Shown here: in pieces, positions 2,938-27,417 of the stretch
How positions within the stretch are numbered: position 1 is the stretch's first letter
Layout of the letters: every line of letters starts with the position of its first letter
Assembly: GCA_002840975.1 (NCBI GenBank)
Contig: PHDN01000004.1
Location: 1-64,000 of the forward strand
Source: Bacteroidetes bacterium HGW-Bacteroidetes-16
GTDB lineage: Bacteria > Bacteroidota > Bacteroidia > Bacteroidales > F082
Direction of reading: 5' to 3'
DNA: 64,000 bases
The notes under the pieces: model-generated
Seen by the model: the letters and a program-made list of their open reading frames with translations, nothing else
The model's database searches: none
Told to the model about the DNA's origin: nothing
Made by a program: the position numbers and the translations under genes

Positions 2938-3945
2938 ATGAAAATACTAACTTACCTCATGATTGGCTTATTAGCCCTTTTGATGGCATCCTCAGGTTGC
3001 TCCAAAAAAGAAGACTCCAACCAAAACCCGGAAGTCTCCTCAGTTCAGGTTAATCCATCCAGTGTTACAGTCAACGGAATGGCTTCCATTTCGGTGAGTG
3101 CCAATGATGCAAATGGCGATGAACTTTCCTATGATTATTTTGTTTCAGGTGGCTCCATCAGTGGAAGCGGCTCGTCGGTTTCATGGAATGCTCCGGCCAA
3201 CGGAGGTGTATTCACTGTTGAAGTTACCGTTTCTGACGGCAAAGGAGAAGCCACGGGCTCCGGACAACTGACGGTTTTAGCTCCGGTAAATAACAACCCT
3301 GTAATCAGCAGTATACAATTAAGCCCCACCACCGCCAATCCCGGACAAGTGGTTTCCATTTCTGTGTCGGCAAACGATGCTGATGGCGACCAGCTTACCT
3401 ATCAATATCAGGTTACAGGAGGTGCCGTTAGCGGAAGTGGGCCTTCAGTTTCATGGACGGCTCCTTCACAAGCTGGTTCCTACTCCGTTACCGTGACGGT
3501 GATGGATGGAGAAGGGGGTCAGGCCGTGAGCAATGGCTCCATCACCGTAAGTCAGCCTGTGACCAAAATTACCGGAACAGCCAGTTTCCCTGCAGGTTCT
3601 TCGGGCGATTTATCCAACGCCAAAGTGAGTATTTACACTTCTTACGATAACTGGAACAACAACAACCCCCTGCAATACATCGCTGCCAACGGATCGGGTT
3701 CCAATGTGTCGTTTGAACTGACCAATGTAACCCCCGGCATCTACTATCTGGATGTTTGGAAAGACAACGATAATAGCGGTGGTTGGTCGTTTGGCGATTT
3801 CGTAGGTTGGTATGGCGATGGCGGATTGGGCGCACCCAGTTTGACCGAAATTTCCGTGCAGGGAGGACAAACAACAAACGTGTCCATAACCATGATGACC
3901 ATCACTGGCAAACAACCCGGTGGAAACACCAAAGTCAATCGCTAA
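2938..3945 (+). CDS. Lipoprotein with two tandem Ig/cadherin-like repeats
   Basis: This is a predicted 335-aa lipoprotein. An N-terminal hydrophobic stretch ends in ASSGC (Cys21) followed by SKKED, a Bacteroidetes lipoprotein signal. Two homologous beta-sandwich repeats of about 90 residues follow. Each has the pattern NP(V/E)(I/V)SS(I/V)Q, then SISVSANDA(N/D)GD(Q/E)L(T/S)Y, then G(S/A)(I/V)SGSG, then VSW(N/T)AP. The C-terminal part, from about residue 205, resembles a carboxypeptidase-regulatory-like beta domain (VTPGIYYLDVWKD). The ATG at 2938 was preferred over an in-frame TTG 21 bp upstream because it begins the signal sequence. It lies 41 bp before another lipoprotein gene and probably shares its transcript. 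The function is unknown; a surface adhesion or binding role is inference. Confidence 0.8.
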   Translation: MKILTYLMIGLLALLMASSGCSKKEDSNQNPEVSSVQVNPSSVTVNGMASISVSANDANGDELSYDYFVSGGSISGSGSSVSWNAPANGGVFTVEVTVSDGKGEATGSGQLTVLAPVNNNPVISSIQLSPTTANPGQVVSISVSANDADGDQLTYQYQVTGGAVSGSGPSVSWTAPSQAGSYSVTVTVMDGEGGQAVSNGSITVSQPVTKITGTASFPAGSSGDLSNAKVSIYTSYDNWNNNNPLQYIAANGSGSNVSFELTNVTPGIYYLDVWKDNDNSGGWSFGDFVGWYGDGGLGAPSLTEISVQGGQTTNVSITMMTITGKQPGGNTKVNR

Positions 3946-3986
3946 TTCTACACTAACTATCTATATTTCAATTAAATATCTGAATA

Positions 3987-13085: not shown

Positions 13086-13200
13086 CGCCACTTTTCTGAG
13101 AAGGATCGCTCGAAATACCTACAATTTCCCCCTTACATCAGAAGAGTATTAATTACTGATTTGGCCCATTATAATGTTACCCAACACTAAGAAGGTCACT

Positions 13201-15078
13201 ATGTTACATAAGGCCTTGACGTTGTTTGTAGTGCTCCTGAGTATTACCCTTTCGGCACAAATACCCACCGGGTATTACGATCCCGCCATCGGTAAAACAG
13301 GTGCCGAATTACAAACCACATTATATTCCATTATCAACAACCATACGGTGGTGAGTTACACACCCGGTGTCTGGAACGCTTTTTACACCACCGACGACAA
13401 ACCCAATGGCTACGTTTGGGATATGTACAGCGATTTGCCGGGTGGTGATCCTCCGTACAATTACACGTTTGGAAGCGGACAGTGTGGGACTTCTTCGCAG
13501 GAAGGAGACTGTTACAGCCGAGAACATGCTTTCTGCCAGAGTTATTTTGCCGGGGCATCTCCCATGTACTCCGACTTGCACCATGTATTCCCTGTAGATC
13601 AGTATGTGAACAATGCAGGTCATAGCAATCATCCTTTTGGTACAGTTACCGTGCCTGCCTATACCTCGCTAAACGGCAGCAAACGAGGTCCGTGTACTTT
13701 CCCGGGATATACGGGCACTGTATTTGAACCCATTGATGAATACAAGGGTGATTTCGCACGGGCCTATTTCTACATGGCTACCCGCTATCAGGATTTGATT
13801 GCAAGTTGGGAGGCCAACACGCCCGAAGGCGATGCTATCCTCAATGGGACATCTTATCCCGCCTATGAAAGCTGGTTTCTTAATTTGCTTCTGACCTGGA
13901 ACGCTGATGATCCTGTATCGACGAAAGAGGTGGACCGCAATGATGCCGTTTATACCATTCAAAATAACCGCAATCCCTATATCGACCATCCTGAATATGT
14001 GGAGGGGGTTTGGGCTCCCGGTGGAATTAAAGCGGAGCCAACCAATCACCTGACAGACCTCGTTTCTATTGCAGGCGATCCAGGCAGCAGCCAAATTATT
14101 CTGAATTGGACAGATGCCACAGGAGCGGTGCTGCCGGATGGTTACCTTATAAAGGGCAGCACAGTGAGTTTCGCAGATATTGCCGATCCCGTTGATGGTG
14201 TGGCAGTGGCCGATGGCGGATTGAACAAAAACAGGATTTACGGAACAGAAACCTATACCTACAATAATCTCACAGCCAGTACCACTTATTATTTTAAAGC
14301 ATATTCATATACCAATTCAGGGGTGGAAATTGACTATAAAACCGACCCCGTTATCCCAACCGCAACCCTGGCCACCACGGTTGGAACCAGTGTGTTGCAA
14401 CCCGGAGAGATTGCTTTTATTGGCTATGGAACGGATGATCCCGACAAATTTGCTTTTGTGCTGCTCACCGATGTGGCCGAAAACACCCAAATCACATTTA
14501 CTGACAATGGATGGATGGGTTCTGTACTCAGAACAGGTGAGCAAACGGGTACCTGGACGGCTCCTACCGGAGGATTGATCAAAGGAACAGTGATTGTCAT
14601 ACAAGGCACGACGGTTACGGGTGGAGGGACCATGTCAAGCGGGCTGACGGGTCTTTCAATATCAGGCGATCAAATCCTGGCTTTTCAGGGAACAACCGAT
14701 TCGCCTGCATTTGTTGCCGGGATTTCAACCACAGGTTGGATCGATACAGGCGTACCCACCAGCAATGAATCTTATTTACCCGCAGAACTGACCCTGTTTT
14801 CATCGGCACTGGGCTTTACTTCCGAGATGGATAATCGAATTTACAATGGCCCTTTAACGCTTGGAAACAGCACCATCAATGCTTTCATCAGCCACCCGGC
14901 GAACTGGCTAAGTGACAATACCATACAAACTTTTCCTTCATGGACATTTGTAATTGGTACACAGACAATAATTAATGTAAATGCCTCGGTTGAAAGTATA
15001 ACTCTGGCGACGGGAGAAACAATAACGGTGCAGGAAAACATCCAACTAACGGTGACAGGAACAGGGGTGAGTAAATAG
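13201..15078 (+). CDS. Secreted endonuclease I family nuclease with fibronectin-type and C-terminal beta domains
   Basis: This 625-aa exported nuclease has a signal peptide (MLHKALTLF...SAQ). The endonuclease I (EndA/NucM, His-Me finger) domain spans about residues 20-270. Its hallmarks are REHAFCQSYF, DLHHVFPVDQYVNNAGHSNHPFG and a conserved NRNPYIDHPEYV near the end. A fibronectin type III-like domain (about 280-400) and a lamin-tail-like beta domain (about 405-590: GEIAFIGYGTDDPDKFAFVLLTD) follow. An earlier ATG at 13174 is possible; 13201 was chosen because it starts a clean signal peptide and is preceded by AAGGT. The protein ends in QLTVTGTGVSK without a T9SS sorting domain. It is followed by a toxin-antitoxin pair and then a decayed second copy of its own 3' end (15650-15885). 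Confidence 0.9.
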   Translation: MLHKALTLFVVLLSITLSAQIPTGYYDPAIGKTGAELQTTLYSIINNHTVVSYTPGVWNAFYTTDDKPNGYVWDMYSDLPGGDPPYNYTFGSGQCGTSSQEGDCYSREHAFCQSYFAGASPMYSDLHHVFPVDQYVNNAGHSNHPFGTVTVPAYTSLNGSKRGPCTFPGYTGTVFEPIDEYKGDFARAYFYMATRYQDLIASWEANTPEGDAILNGTSYPAYESWFLNLLLTWNADDPVSTKEVDRNDAVYTIQNNRNPYIDHPEYVEGVWAPGGIKAEPTNHLTDLVSIAGDPGSSQIILNWTDATGAVLPDGYLIKGSTVSFADIADPVDGVAVADGGLNKNRIYGTETYTYNNLTASTTYYFKAYSYTNSGVEIDYKTDPVIPTATLATTVGTSVLQPGEIAFIGYGTDDPDKFAFVLLTDVAENTQITFTDNGWMGSVLRTGEQTGTWTAPTGGLIKGTVIVIQGTTVTGGGTMSSGLTGLSISGDQILAFQGTTDSPAFVAGISTTGWIDTGVPTSNESYLPAELTLFSSALGFTSEMDNRIYNGPLTLGNSTINAFISHPANWLSDNTIQTFPSWTFVIGTQTIINVNASVESITLATGETITVQENIQLTVTGTGVSK

Positions 15079-15110
15079 AAGGATTAGAAACCATTGTTTG
15101 AAAATAATAG

Positions 15111-15118
15111 TAAATTTG
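15111..15118 (+). promoter_or_regulatory. Promoter -7 box of the TA operon
   Basis: TAAATTTG matches TAnnTTTG, 16 bp before the antitoxin ATG. It lies in the 55 bp between the nuclease stop and the TA pair, so the pair has its own promoter. Confidence 0.55.
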
Positions 15119-15133
15119 TACAAAAAGACTGAT

Positions 15134-15316
15134 ATGCTGACAAAGGAAAAAATAAAAAAGACAATTGATTTACTGCCGGAGAATGTAACAATAGATGAAA
15201 TAATCAGCAGAATTATCCTCCTTGACAAAATTGAACAAGGACTTGATGACATTGAAAAAGGAAATGTTTATACAACTGAAGAAGTTGAAAACAAATTGAA
15301 TAAATGGTTAAAATAA
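15134..15316 (+). CDS. Antitoxin of a RelE/ParE-type TA pair
   Basis: This 60-aa acidic, mostly helical protein (MLTKEKIKKTIDLLPENVTIDEIISRIILLDKIEQGLDDIEKG, then YTTEEVENKLNKW) resembles short Bacteroidetes antitoxins found before RelE/ParE toxins. The C-terminal part would wrap the toxin. Its last 13 bp overlap the toxin gene, a normal coupling. ATG 15134 was chosen because it lies just after the promoter; a longer in-frame reading from 15098 would overlap the promoter box. There is no clear HTH or ribbon-helix-helix in the first residues, so DNA binding is uncertain. Confidence 0.75.
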   Translation: MLTKEKIKKTIDLLPENVTIDEIISRIILLDKIEQGLDDIEKGNVYTTEEVENKLNKWLK

Positions 15317-15603
15317 TCTGGACAGCCAGGTCTCTTTCTGATCTTGAAGATATTGGTGAATTCATATCTAAGGATTCACCCCGATATGCCGGGTTGACTA
15401 TTGATAAGTTGATTGAAATGGCCAAGATGATTGAACAAAATCAAAAAATTGGAAGAATTGTACCAGAATTGAACCAGAACGATATCAGAGAAATTATCAC
15501 AGGGAATTATCGAATTATTTATCAGATATTTAATGCTGAAGCATTATACATTCTTACAGTACATCACAGTTCAAGACTACTATCGAATAATCCACTATTT
15601 TAA
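15304..15603 (+). CDS. RelE/ParE-family toxin
   Basis: This is a 99-aa toxin of the RelE/ParE superfamily. Family features are VKIIWTARSLSDLEDIGEFI at the N terminus, GRIVPELNQNDIREIITGNYRIIYQI in the core and ILTVHHSSRLL at the end. The pattern PEL..xxIREIxxGNYRIIYxI is more ParE-like (gyrase) than RelE-like (ribosome), but the target cannot be settled by eye. It overlaps the antitoxin by 13 bp. The module stands alone, without integrase or transposase, between two copies of the nuclease gene end. Confidence 0.88.
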   Translation: MVKIIWTARSLSDLEDIGEFISKDSPRYAGLTIDKLIEMAKMIEQNQKIGRIVPELNQNDIREIITGNYRIIYQIFNAEALYILTVHHSSRLLSNNPLF

Positions 15604-15649
15604 TACAAAAACAAAGTAAGATTGAGACTATTCAATGATACATTGTTAC

Positions 15650-15885
15650 TTTTATTGGTGAACAACTCTCACAACCAGCACCGCCCATGCTTTCATCAGC
15701 CACCCGACTAACTGACTAAGTGACAATACCATACAAACATTTCCTTCCTGGACCTTCGCTATTGGCACCCAGACCATCATCAATGTCAATGCCACTGTGG
15801 GAATCTAAAATTAGGAGTAGGTGAAACATTGAATGTTCAGGACAACAGCCAAATTACTCTTACCGGAACAAGCGCCAGTAAATAG
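15650..15885 (+). pseudogene. Second, decayed copy of the endonuclease gene 3' end
   Basis: This stretch is homologous to the last about 235 bp of the nuclease gene (14843-15078). In frame it reads TLTTSTAHAFISHPTN, stop, LSDNTIQTFPSWTFAIGTQTIINVNATV. After a frameshift it continues as GVGETLNVQDNSQITLTGTSASK and a stop. The intact copy reads TLGNSTINAFISHPANWLSDNTIQ and so on to TGTGVSK and a stop. The two differ at many sites yet end at the same codon. There is no upstream part of the gene here, so it is a displaced gene end and not a second gene. The TA pair lies exactly between the two copies. Confidence 0.85.
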
Positions 15886-16558
15886 AATTTAAATTCTCAT
15901 CCGCGTTTCAAGCCTCCATGCCTTCGGCAGGTTCACCTACCGAAGTCATGGAGGTAGGTAAAACGGCAGACGAGTGAAACACAAATGAAAATCAACTTAA
16001 CAATCTGTATATCTGTTTAATATAAATAGCAACACAATCGTGTTACACTCGTCTGCAGGTATGCCTGAAACGCCTACCTACCGTAGGCAGGCTGACGAGA
16101 GGGATTCCCCCATTTCCCCTTTCTAACTAAAATTTAATGGTAAATCAGTTGCTTTTTTTTATGTATTGTTTTATTTTTGTGCTTTATCGATACTTCTACC
16201 AAGTATAACCTGCTAATTTGTATTGTATTGAACCCAAAAATAAATTTCCATGAAAGGCCTTTACTATTTTGTCCCCCTTGGGGCGACATCCCATATTTTA
16301 TTAGACTCGGAAGTTAAAATCGAATGACACCCGATACCCAAGGCGGAACTCCCTGCTTTGCTGTGGTGTGTTTTCTGATTCTCCATTGGCGGAAACAGAA
16401 CCATTACAGGAGCCGTGTATCCTGCCTTTTTCCATAGATTATTACAGGTAAGTTACTTTACAATGAGTTAAAACAGGTTAACAATCAAGTAATACCACTT
16501 TTGTTCTATTACCTAAAAACATAACAATATTTCGATTTATTAATTAATTTTTAAAGCT
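15886..16558. other. Gene-free stretch with palindromic repeats
   Basis: No convincing gene is seen. It holds short GC-richer palindromic repeats at about 15905-15980 and 16045-16095, for example CCTACC.GTAGGCAGG. Positions 16200-16440 look like decayed coding sequence, but I cannot assign a family. The final 100 bp are AT-rich and precede the T9SS cargo gene. Confidence 0.5.
15966..16056. repeat. Inverted repeat, 11-bp arms
   Basis: GCAGACGAGTG (15966-15976) and CACTCGTCTGC (16046-16056) are exact inverse copies about 70 bp apart, flanked by further CCTACC/GGTAGG palindromes. It resembles a small dispersed intergenic repeat element. Confidence 0.6.
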
Positions 16559-18628
16559 ATGAAAAAAAATTTACAAAAGGCAACCGGGATGGTGCTATTG
16601 ATGATGGTGGTGGGGAGTGCCTGGGGGCAGATAATCAGCCAGTATGTGGAAACTAATTCAGGTACTACTCCAAAGGGAATAGAGATATGGAATAATACTG
16701 CTTCCACATTGGATTTTTCAACAAATAATTTAATTATTCAACAAGGTACCAATGGAGGTGCATTAGCTGATATCGGATCAACTACCATAGCTACAGGTAC
16801 ATTAATTCCAGGTGCTGTTCTTGTGATTGGGACGAGTGACATCGGAATTTATTTGACGGATCAAGATCTTACGTCTATAACTTTTAAAAGTTATGGGTTT
16901 AGTTTTAATGGAAATGATGCTCTAGCTGTAAAATATGGTGGTTCAATCACCGATGTTTTTGGCACTCCCACTGTTGATCCTGTAAGTGCATGGACAGGAG
17001 GTGGTGTGAGTACAGCCAATCAAAATATTTCCTTAAATTCAGGAATAACCACTGGTGATCTCGATGGATGGACAGATCCAAGTACAAGATTCCAGACTTT
17101 TTCTACAAATCCTTCAGGAAGTGGCGGACTTGTTGGGTTTGGACTTCCTCCGGGCACATCCGGTTTCTGGAAACCAAATGCTGCAACGACAAACTGGGCA
17201 ACAGGTTCTAACTGGGATGATAGTAATGTACCTACAATTGCCACAAATGTACTCCTTCCCTCCGGAGCTTCAAATTATCCCACGATAACAGCTCCGGCTA
17301 ATTGTAATGATATCACCATCGAAGATGGAGCCTCTCTAATCGGAGCTGAAAATCTTACAGTAAGCGGAGCAGCTACTATGCAACGATCTATTCCTGCCTA
17401 TACTACCAGTGCTGATGGCTGGCATCTTCTGTCCTCTCCCGTGAACAACATGGCCATAGCAGGTTCCGATTTTGAGCCAGGGACAGTATCTCCAAACCTG
17501 GATGACTTCTATGCTTTTAGTGAATCAACCTATGAATGGTTAAATTATAAAGTTGGAGCCAACAATATCACAAATTTTGTAAATGGAACCGGATACCTTG
17601 TTTCGTACGAAACAACTTCCACCAAAGATTTTACAGGGACCTTGAATACTGAGGATGTTCCCTTTACAAATCTTTCTAAAACAGCCGGAAAAGGCAATGG
17701 CTGGCATTTGTTGGGGAATCCATTTCAATCAGCTTTGCATTGGACCAATAGCGTAATTACTTGGAACCCAACTGCAATAGGAACGGGAGCCAAGATCTTG
17801 AATTCAGGCGGTAGTTATACCGATGTTACCTATGATGGTGCCAACCAATTTATTCCTCCAAATCAGGGCTTCTTTGTTCAGGCAACTGATGCCACAAACA
17901 GCATCACTATACCATTAGATGAGCGAACACATAACTCAACCGATTTTTATAAATCACCTGTTCAAAATTCACTTACTTTGAAAGCTTCCGATGGTGAATT
18001 TTATGTTGAAACCTGGATACAGATGATGGAAGGTGCTACGACAGATTTTGATGAGCAATATGATGTGAATTTCTTAGGTGGTATGTACCAGGCACCTTAC
18101 TTCTATTCAATTATTTCGGGGGAAGGTCATCTTTCCACCAACCGCATTGCCCCGGTTAATGAACAAACCACCGTGCCATTGGCTTTTAAAGCCTTTCTCA
18201 ACAGGGAATACACAATAACTGCCAGCAATGCCAGCACATTTGGGGATGAAATAGATGTGATTCTGGAAGATACACAGGAAAATATTCAAATCGATTTAAA
18301 AGATACACTTGAATACACTTTTATGGCTACTGCCGATGAACTTACAGAACGCTTTGTAGTTCATTTTTTCAATGTTACCGGTATCTCCGAAACCACGCAT
18401 CCCGAAAGTGTACGAATCTATAGCTATGGCAACCGGGTTTATCTGCGTAGCGAGCTAAATACTTATGGAGATGTCACTGTTTATAACATGCTGGCGCAGA
18501 AGGTTTACAATTCTCCAGTTGAGCTCAGTGGTCTGCAATCATTTAGCGTGAATCTGAATAAAGGCTGGTTTGTAGTACAAGTTGTTACTACACAAGGCGT
18601 TAAAAGTAAAAAAGTCTTCATCAACTAA
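16559..18628 (+). CDS. T9SS-secreted protein with lamin-tail-like N terminus
   Basis: This 689-aa exported protein has a signal peptide (ends near SAWGQ). Residues 22-190 form a lamin-tail-like beta domain (ISQYVETNSGTTPKGIEIWNN, then GDALAVKYGG-like motifs). The central region has GWHLLSSPVNNMAI and GWHLLGNPFQSALHW repeats, common in Bacteroidetes surface proteins. The last about 75 residues (VRIYSYGNRVYLRSELNTYGDVTVYNMLAQKVY, then KKVFIN) are a type A T9SS sorting domain, so the protein should be exported through the outer membrane and attached or released. The function is unknown. The small tail-anchored protein gene follows 21 bp downstream. Confidence 0.88.
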   Translation: MKKNLQKATGMVLLMMVVGSAWGQIISQYVETNSGTTPKGIEIWNNTASTLDFSTNNLIIQQGTNGGALADIGSTTIATGTLIPGAVLVIGTSDIGIYLTDQDLTSITFKSYGFSFNGNDALAVKYGGSITDVFGTPTVDPVSAWTGGGVSTANQNISLNSGITTGDLDGWTDPSTRFQTFSTNPSGSGGLVGFGLPPGTSGFWKPNAATTNWATGSNWDDSNVPTIATNVLLPSGASNYPTITAPANCNDITIEDGASLIGAENLTVSGAATMQRSIPAYTTSADGWHLLSSPVNNMAIAGSDFEPGTVSPNLDDFYAFSESTYEWLNYKVGANNITNFVNGTGYLVSYETTSTKDFTGTLNTEDVPFTNLSKTAGKGNGWHLLGNPFQSALHWTNSVITWNPTAIGTGAKILNSGGSYTDVTYDGANQFIPPNQGFFVQATDATNSITIPLDERTHNSTDFYKSPVQNSLTLKASDGEFYVETWIQMMEGATTDFDEQYDVNFLGGMYQAPYFYSIISGEGHLSTNRIAPVNEQTTVPLAFKAFLNREYTITASNASTFGDEIDVILEDTQENIQIDLKDTLEYTFMATADELTERFVVHFFNVTGISETTHPESVRIYSYGNRVYLRSELNTYGDVTVYNMLAQKVYNSPVELSGLQSFSVNLNKGWFVVQVVTTQGVKSKKVFIN

Positions 18629-25175: not shown

Positions 25176-26366
25176 ATGAAAAATATTGATAATTACGACT
25201 TTAGAAATAAAAAAGTAATCGTACGTGTCGATTTTAATGTGCCTTTGGATGCTCAATTCAATGTAACTGACGATACCCGCATTAAAGCGACCATTCCCAC
25301 CATCAAAAAGATACTTCAGGGTGGAGGTTCTGTCATTTTAATGTCGCATCTGGGGAGGCCAAAAGGTGGTCCTGAAGACAAATTTTCACTGCGACATGTA
25401 TTGGATGATTTATCGAAAAAATTGGGCTTGGACGTGCAGTTTGCGGATGATTGTATTGGTGAATCGGCCCGCCGCATGGCCGCGGCTTTACAACCCGGAC
25501 AGGTGTTGTTGCTTGAGAACCTGCGTTTTTATAAGGAAGAAGAAGCCGGAGATGTTGGTTTTGCTAAAAAACTGGCCGATTTGGCCGACGTATACATGAA
25601 CGACGCCTTTGGAACGGCTCACCGGGCACACGCTTCCACTGCTGTGATAGCACAGTTTTTTCCGGAAAACAAACTCTTTGGCTATGTGATGGGTGGCGAA
25701 GTAAGCAGCATTAACAAGGTGCTGAAGGAAGGTCATAAACCCGTTACTGCCATCCTTGGAGGTGCCAAAGTTTCGGGAAAGATCGAAATCATCAACAACC
25801 TGCTCGACAAAGTGGATAATCTGGTGATCGGTGGCGGAATGATGTTTACCTTTATCAAAGCCATGGGTGGAAAAACCGGAAATTCGCTGGTGGAAGATGA
25901 TTTGATCAAAACAGCTAAATCGGCCATGGAGAAAGCTAAAAAGCTGGGTGTTCACTTTTACATTCCCACAGATGCCGTGATTGCTGATCAATTTGATAAT
26001 GAAGCCAATTTTAAAACCTGTAAGGCTGATGTCATTCCTGACGGATGGATGGGCCTGGATATCGGACCCAAATCTGTTGCCGCCATCAAGGAGATCATCC
26101 TGAGTTCGTCCACCTTGTTGTGGAATGGTCCCATGGGCGTATTCGAAATGGACCATTTTGCACAGGGTACCATCGAAATTGCCAAAGCCATTGCCGAAGC
26201 TACGCAAAAAGGCGCCTTCTCGCTGGTAGGTGGTGGCGATTCGGTAGCCGCTGTTAATAAATACCACCTCAGCGACCAGATCAGTCATGTTTCAACTGGT
26301 GGTGGCGCTATGCTGGAATTTATCGAAGGAAAAGAGCTGCCGGGAGTAGCGGCAATAGAGGCTTAA
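25176..26366 (+). CDS. pgk: Phosphoglycerate kinase
   Basis: Glycolytic enzyme of 396 aa, transferring phosphate from 1,3-bisphosphoglycerate to ADP. All landmarks are present: [70 protein letters not shown] and the nucleotide-loop [11 protein letters not shown]. The protein is intact and of normal length. What is odd lies downstream: after its terminator and a HigBA toxin-antitoxin pair, the last 60 codons of pgk occur again in a decayed form (27238-27417). Confidence 0.97.
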
Positions 26367-26471: not shown

Positions 26472-26798
26472 TTAAACAAGTTGTACATATTGTTTTTCAA
26501 TCGTTACATTAAAATGGATGTCGGCTTTAAGCGCTTTAAATACTTTTAAAATAGTGTCGATTGTAGCACTGTTTGTATGGCTTTCAAGTTTAGAGATTTG
26601 AGATTTTTGCACACCAACGAGTTGTCCCAATTGTTCTTGTGTTAAATTTCGTTCGGTTCGCGCCTTTTTAATCATCTTACCTAAAACGTCCATACGAAGT
26701 TCGTATTCATACTCTTCCCTGTCACCAGACCCGATTTTGCCAATATATTTGTCCTTCATTTCAGCTAATGAATATGATTTAATTTCTGTCTTTTCCAT
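26472..26798 (-). CDS. higA: HigA-type antitoxin (XRE helix-turn-helix)
   Basis: This 108-aa antitoxin has an XRE HTH at about residues 40-95: KKARTERNLTQEQLGQLVGVQKSQISKLESHTNSATIDTILKVFKAL. The N-terminal 35 residues are charged and probably bind the toxin. It is the second gene of a toxin-first operon, 11 bp after the toxin, which is the HigBA order. It should repress the operon through the palindrome at 27167-27189. It is convergent to pgk, whose terminator lies between them. Confidence 0.88.
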   Translation of the reverse strand: MEKTEIKSYSLAEMKDKYIGKIGSGDREEYEYELRMDVLGKMIKKARTERNLTQEQLGQLVGVQKSQISKLESHTNSATIDTILKVFKALKADIHFNVTIEKQYVQLV

Positions 26799-26809
26799 GG
26801 TCTATTTTT

Positions 26810-27142
26810 TTATTTGTTATTGAAATAATTTGTTCTGATATTTATTGCTCTCTCGATTTCACTATTGGGTACTTTATCAGACTTTTTAATAAACCCGTGA
26901 GTAGCAAAAACCAATGTTTTCATGTTGTCGGTTTTATCCCAAAATGCCAATAACCTCACCTGAAGTCCCGAATAATTTGTCCGAAATTCCCAAATGTCAT
27001 TTTTAAGTTTTTTAAACAACTTTGGGTCATTGGTCTGTTCAGCAAGATCAAGGTTGTACAATATTTTCTTCACGATTTTTGGGTCGAGTTGTGAAATAAA
27101 CCCGACAGCTTCCTCTAAAAATCTGGTTTGAAAATAGTGCAT
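26810..27142 (-). CDS. higB: HigB/Gp49-family toxin
   Basis: This 110-aa RelE-superfamily toxin of the HigB/Gp49-like type is expected to be a ribosome-dependent mRNA nuclease. Family features are FLEEAVGFISQLDPKIVKKILYNLD, KLKNDIWEFRTNYSGLQVRLLAFWD and LVFATHGFIKKSDKVPNSEIERA. The last motif (THGFxKKxxKxPxxEIxxA) is the hallmark of Gp49-like HigB. It is the first gene of the operon, before the antitoxin. No integrase or transposase accompanies it. Confidence 0.9.
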   Translation of the reverse strand: MHYFQTRFLEEAVGFISQLDPKIVKKILYNLDLAEQTNDPKLFKKLKNDIWEFRTNYSGLQVRLLAFWDKTDNMKTLVFATHGFIKKSDKVPNSEIERAINIRTNYFNNK

Positions 27143-27189: not shown

Positions 27190-27237
27190 GTCTTGCAAAA
27201 AGATTAACTGTCTCTTAAGTGATAGTAAAATAACAGT

Positions 27238-27417
27238 GCCATTGCCGAAGCCACTCAAAAATGAGCCTTCTCATTGGTAGGTGGCGGCGACTTAGTAGCA
27301 GCCGTCAACAAGTACCACCTCAGCGACCAGATCAGTCATGTTTCAACTGGTGGTGGCGCCATGCTGGAATTTATCGAAGGCAAAGAGCTGCCGGGAGTAG
27401 CGGTGATTGAGGTATAG
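27238..27417 (+). pseudogene. Second, decayed copy of the pgk 3' end
   Basis: These 180 bp align without gaps to the last 60 codons of pgk (26187-26366) with 157 identities by my count (about 87%). Of 18 altered sense codons, 14 changes are synonymous. The exceptions are Gly to TGA (premature stop), Ser to Leu in the GGGDS nucleotide loop and two Ala to Val near the end. A 47-bp block in the middle is identical. No upstream part of pgk is present. The mostly synonymous pattern means the two ends diverged while both were functional, before this one decayed. Confidence 0.9.

Follow-up and report, generated by a model that had tools for sequence, protein, structure and literature searches.

The window, a 64,000-nucleotide stretch of contig PHDN01000004.1, belongs to a Bacteroidales genome of 3.94 Mb (G000). 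An intact gene for a secreted nuclease of the Endonuclease I family with a C-terminal tail was found on its plus strand at 13174-15078 (634 aa; PF04231, Endonuclease_1, E=3e-79), and the orthologues in the related genomes G001 and G004 were 84-87% identical to it. As the first-pass annotation had stated, a RelE/ParE-type toxin-antitoxin (TA) pair begins 55 bp past the nuclease stop at 15078, with the antitoxin ATG at 15134. The antitoxin gene (15134-15316, plus strand, 60 aa) had a weak RelB/ParD match that stayed under the cut-off (NF050811, 19 bits vs a cut-off of 60). The toxin gene on the same strand (15304-15603, 99 aa) was assigned to the ParE/RelE superfamily by PF05016 (ParE_toxin; E=1e-15, 58 bits vs a cut-off of 23) and by TIGR02385 (RelE/StbE; 35.8 bits vs a cut-off of 27.9). 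The small antitoxin gene is directly upstream of the toxin and overlaps its start at 15304, which is the layout of a type II TA, and the insert held these two genes only, with no integrase gene.

Beyond the toxin, locus comparison delimited a spacer at 15604-15663 that is also present in G004, followed at 15664-15885 on the plus strand by an orphan 3' end of the nuclease gene, whose homologous counterpart in G004 lies at about 3992-4214 of L005. The earlier description of this second copy as homologous yet diverged and ending at the equivalent stop was borne out, but the copy starts at 15664, about 60 bp past the toxin, and not at 15650 within 50 bp of it. When 14856-15081 was aligned with 15664-15888, one 1-nt gap was required and the identity was about 75% overall and 81% across the first 140 nt, which gives a flanking direct repeat of about 222 bp. 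The same TAG terminates both copies (15078 and 15885). The reported frameshift was recovered as the 1-nt gap, whereas the reported stops came down to one nonsense codon (TGG to TGA). The mismatches fell 12/11/32 on the three codon positions of the intact frame, so that 32 of 55 were third-position differences (p=1.4e-4), which indicated that the two copies diverged mostly while coding. On the 3' side of the orphan, a REP-like inverted repeat was noted at 15887-16070, missing there in G001 and G004. In the next gene (16559-18628; L004 from about 4031 onward, L014 from about 2347 onward) the leader MKKNL.KATGM.LLMMVVGSAWGQ was conserved and the mature parts were unrelated among G000, G001 and G004, and here a secreted body has apparently been swapped behind a fixed signal peptide.

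The second case in the window concerns pgk, the intact phosphoglycerate kinase gene at 25176-26366 (plus strand). A TA pair recognised by profile matches lies behind it on the minus strand, with an HTH antitoxin at 26472-26798 and a Gp49/HigB-type toxin at 26810-27142, and alignment placed an orphan pgk 3' end at 27227-27417 on the plus strand, followed by its own terminator-like hairpin. The pgk orphan was 87% identical to the intact end over a direct repeat of about 190 bp, and the mismatches by codon position were 3/5/17. ORFs, profile matches and alignment thus confirmed the order of intact gene end, TA and orphan gene end proposed at the nuclease gene, and the same order was found at pgk with another TA type, the opposite TA orientation and another host gene, as had been claimed.

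The loci were compared with those of five genomes of the genus, which are metagenome assemblies. The first-pass annotation had named two full tandem nuclease genes in relatives as the finding that would count against it; G001 carries one nuclease gene at a TA-free, empty site. In G004, the nuclease gene is followed by the same TA (93% identical over the segment) and by an orphan, with the same junction as in G000. The layout is not an assembly artefact, because the same junctions recur in two independent genomes, at the nuclease in G004 and at pgk in G003. The 3' flank of the G004 orphan was 97% identical to G001, and upstream of the gene the identity between G001 and G004 was about 82-87%. 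At the sites where the two copies of G004 differ, G001 matched the orphan at 56 and the intact end at 26, and nearly all of the distal sites favoured the orphan as the G001-like copy. At the sites that separate the window orphan from the G001 gene, the G004 orphan had the window-orphan state by 21:2 up to about 15686, and beyond that point the G001 (empty-site) state by 53:3 (p=6e-14 for the breakpoint). To judge by this breakpoint, the right edge of the G004 cassette is a homologous crossover within the gene end; the first bases of the G004 orphan arrived with the TA and the remainder is the displaced resident end. Together with the G001-like flank, the breakpoint indicated that a gene end accompanies the TA when it moves and that the orphan is the resident end so displaced.

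The intact nuclease gene of G000 was itself a mosaic, as revealed by sliding identity. It was G001-like to 14040, G004-like at 14040-14840 (up to 92-96%, with G001 at about 68-71%), G001-like again at 14851-15030 and G004-like to the stop; the rest of the gene outside the inner tract was 97% G001-like, and the final 50 nt or so (15031-15078), which are linked to the TA, were 96% G004-like and 71% G001-like. This pattern was reached in 0 of 500 permutations. Where the two nuclease copies of G000 differ, G001 agreed with the intact end by 56:16, and no match to the G000 orphan itself was found among the relatives of the five-genome set; the G000 orphan and its flank probably came from a lineage outside the sampled genomes. 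The expectation that an uninterrupted relative should resemble the downstream copy more closely therefore held in G004 and failed at the nuclease gene of the window genome, and at pgk the likeness of G001 to the two copies was undecided (12:14); the window genome fails or is equivocal on this simple allele test because the locus recombined more than once. Between G000 and G004, the toxin differed by 11 synonymous and 9 nonsynonymous codons, and the differences by codon position were 6/2/14 in the toxin and 1/0/3 in the antitoxin, a third-position excess consistent with selection on the proteins.

The pgk site was also found empty and filled in the genus. It was TA-free in G001, carried the TA and the same orphan junction in G003, and carried the TA without the orphan in G004; the toxin of this locus was internally deleted in both G003 and G004. 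Among the 25 differences between the two pgk copies of G000, 15 were alleles present in the intact pgk of other species (2/1/12 by codon position), and the other 10 occurred in the orphan alone (1/4/5), spread as evenly over the codon positions as decay would predict. Since 15 of 25 were alleles of other species, the two copies did not arise by a recent duplication and later drift, and the coding divergence that was inherited can be told apart from the decay that came afterwards. In a set of 160 pgk-bearing genomes of the family, G000 and G003 were the only ones in which a short, partial second pgk lay next to the gene.

The layout was further sought at other gene ends by a toxin-profile scan of 84,980 species genomes, which yielded 80 ParE loci, 72 of them usable, including the G004 copy of the nuclease locus (L098). 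Tight direct-repeat brackets surrounded the TA in 22 of the 72 loci compared with 12 of 153 control small genes of the same loci (p=3e-5). Gene-end brackets were found in 8/72 ParE loci vs 3/285 control small genes (p=2e-4), the raw control count of 5/287 having been reduced by the two TAs of the window itself; two of the eight, L158 and L127, were counted by rule and may be dispersed repeats, and a strict reading left four cases (p=0.03). A looser control of random 485-bp blocks (7/566) overstated the enrichment and was replaced by the small-gene controls. The same layout was found with other TA types and other host genes: at aconitase in a Melioribacteraceae genome (L122), at pyruvate kinase in an Ignavibacteria genome (L152) and at a TonB_C gene (L146), which is followed first by ParDE and an orphan end and then by HicBA and a third copy, itself decayed (mismatches 4/1/13). 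L120 showed the mirror image, in which the orphan is the start of a gene. The inserts in the clear recurrent cases were TA alone, and in the convincing gene-end cases, which involve four unrelated genes, the insert consisted of the TA and roughly 35-105 bp on each side, with no integrase. In L146 (3020-5800 of the locus, JANXXZ010000167.1), two TA pairs are stacked behind one TonB_C gene; at the 3' end, copies 1 and 3 agree almost completely and copy 2 is different, and the third copy is near full-length.

Other loci did not carry such brackets. In 50 of the 72 ParE loci there was no bracket at all, and in L099, which holds the closest TA beyond the genus, that TA lies behind recJ with no orphan; given such unbracketed loci, gene-end insertion is one of several routes. 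Among 30 HicA loci of the family, none had a clear bracket of coding gene ends. Comparison of L152 with its pyruvate kinase relatives gave no sign that its intact pyk end is foreign, although several of the frames extracted there were not pyk. In one such relative (L188, G178), a RES-Xre TA lies directly downstream of pyruvate kinase at 3076-3965 and no orphan was found; possibly the pyk end is a hotspot for TAs. When 765 kb (19%) of the window genome was scanned, only the two known TA sandwiches and two weaker gene-end repeats with non-TA content emerged. Non-TA cargo was also seen at 1171-1918 of L213 (G000:C2), where the orphan start of a transporter-like gene lies beyond a short ATPase-like ORF in a gene-end bracket. 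In L060 (G042:C328), a HigBA-type TA is flanked on each side by a terminator-like hairpin, the two copies of which (1378-1438 and 2207-2267) are 84% identical. In L047 (G004:C132:198262-200391), L051 (G026:C4) and L045 (G015:C122), TA pairs and other small genes are bordered by repeats of about 80-125 bp; those of L047 and L051 are attC-like, with ends such as AACGGG..GCATATGC / GTATATGCAGTGTTA, and these may be integron-type cassette sites in the family, with no integrase visible nearby. An integron-type cassette was rejected for the nuclease locus, since attC-like repeats flank those other TAs of the clade and not this one, whose borders are coding gene ends.

Any explanation has to accommodate the empty and filled sites with a common junction, the mosaic host gene, the breakpoint inside the G004 orphan and the recurrence at other genes. 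We favour, with a probability of roughly two in three, an insertion of the TA by homologous recombination in the gene end that needs no recombinase of its own and preserves the end of the host gene. The incoming DNA would be linear, with the TA attached to a homologous nuclease 3' end. By recombination inside the gene, the resident gene would acquire the incoming 3' end and stop and stay whole, and the mosaic nuclease gene provides such a homologous anchor on one side. The other edge would join within the resident gene end and strand the old end as the orphan; at the founding event, for which no donor was found, this second join was possibly illegitimate, as in homology-facilitated illegitimate recombination. 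Once formed, the cassette would have gene-end homology on both sides and could enter the empty gene of another genome by crossovers in the gene end alone, and in later transfers the orphan could serve as the second homology arm, as is seen in G004. Provided that the toxin is active, addiction would presumably retain the TA while the orphan decays, and harmlessness to the host gene may also favour persistence. Transformation is a plausible entry route; ComEC was considered as a sign of competence and set aside as uninformative, because E. coli has it as well as the genus. Against the favoured reading, 14851-15030 of the intact end in G000 is G001-like, and only the last 50 nt and the inner tract look cassette-linked. 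This G001-like tract requires several events or gene conversion, and the data leave the direction of transfer free. The closer fit of G001 to the intact end than to the orphan in G000, the lack of a relative that matches this orphan, the pyk end of L152, the orphan-free L099 and the unbracketed ParE loci count against the favoured reading as well.

Several other origins could give the same order of genes. In a long target duplication of the kind attributed to restriction-modification systems, the TA would insert and copy about 200 bp of its target, after which the copies would drift. The geometry and repeat length are the same, the repeats being of the order of 100 bp, and filled and empty sites occur in close relatives; but drift after one duplication predicts changes private to each copy, whereas the nuclease differences are mostly third-position and the pgk differences are mostly states of other species' intact genes, which a single copied target would not supply. 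Plain duplication and drift is largely refuted at pgk by these shared alleles, and long target duplication as a whole was considered rather unlikely. A small circle holding the TA and a gene end, perhaps excised between the copies in a donor, could instead integrate in the manner of Campbell, through a single crossover within that end. A common junction and an orphan with a cassette-like proximal and a resident distal part, as seen in G004, are what it predicts, and it needs no recombinase either. No circle was observed, however, a linear double crossover fits the same data, and the long G004-like tract at 14040-14840 of the nuclease gene suggests linear donor DNA; we regard single-crossover integration of a circle as unlikely.

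An integrative element that targets gene 3' ends by site-specific integration, as e14 does in icd, would leave the same intact and orphan ends, and its deletion down to the TA could produce the present loci. Such a history is improbable, as each of the convincing cases, found at four unrelated genes, holds the TA only and lacks an integrase, and the nuclease, pgk, aconitase and pyk copies share no common core in alignments read by eye. Two full tandem genes, most of the second being deleted, would also account for the codon-position bias, which fits two old paralogues, and the near full-length third copy of L146 agrees with this. The single nuclease gene at the empty site of G001 and the G004 orphan, a resident end by its breakpoint, refute a tandem paralogue for the nuclease in this genus, and the confinement of the partial second pgk to G000 and G003 among the 160 family genomes speaks against it at pgk. 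As a general account, the tandem remnant was judged very improbable.

Lone chromosomal TA pairs carry neither a transposase nor an integrase, and how they reach new chromosomal sites is a question to which the nuclease locus and its relatives, with their filled and empty sites, breakpoints and displaced ends, make one answer testable. The candidate answer is recombination in host gene ends, in which the incoming end keeps the gene intact. From the loci compared here, the layout recurs at unrelated housekeeping genes and would let TA pairs settle without breaking the host gene. The order of intact end, TA and orphan end offers a search signature for integrase-free insertions, which could be dated by the decay of the orphan. 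It is also conceivable, though we put this forward tentatively and hold it to be doubtful, that TA pairs are the smallest known mobile elements: two genes without a recombinase that use copies of host gene ends as portable homology arms and host recombination as the engine, enter core metabolic genes without damage and stack in series.

No description of TA pairs in the layout of intact end, TA and orphan end was found in open-licence papers, and each of the systems known to us resembles it in part. Insertion of restriction-modification units reportedly produces duplications of variable length, on the order of 100 bp (PMC3874152, PMC3031569; Nobusato/Kobayashi). There, as in our loci, an addiction-type pair is inserted alone, the direct repeats around it vary in length from about 100 bp upward, and the insertion is seen from filled and empty sites; here, in contrast, the copies are alleles of different origin, one of which replaces the host gene end, and a type II TA is the cargo. 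In the C-terminal displacement of Rhs and CDI systems, orphan gene ends likewise lie behind a toxin/immunity unit (PMC3150448, PMC5361080), but the duplicated ends here are a nuclease tail and the pgk C-terminus, which are not toxin-encoding. The e14 element supplies a diverged icd 3' end with 10 synonymous and 2 nonsynonymous changes (PMC2973815), so that in E. coli, too, the element brings a replacement end and the housekeeping gene stays whole. However, e14 is a 15 kb prophage with site-specific integration, whereas the TA inserts are about 0.6-0.9 kb, without an integrase or a visible common core. For T6SS effector-immunity arrays, homology-facilitated illegitimate recombination that leaves orphan immunity genes was proposed (PMC5361080). 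A one-sided homologous anchor and a resident segment displaced downstream are common to that model and to the nuclease and pgk loci; the anchor gene of the T6SS case is the effector itself, whereas here it is an unrelated housekeeping or secreted-enzyme gene.
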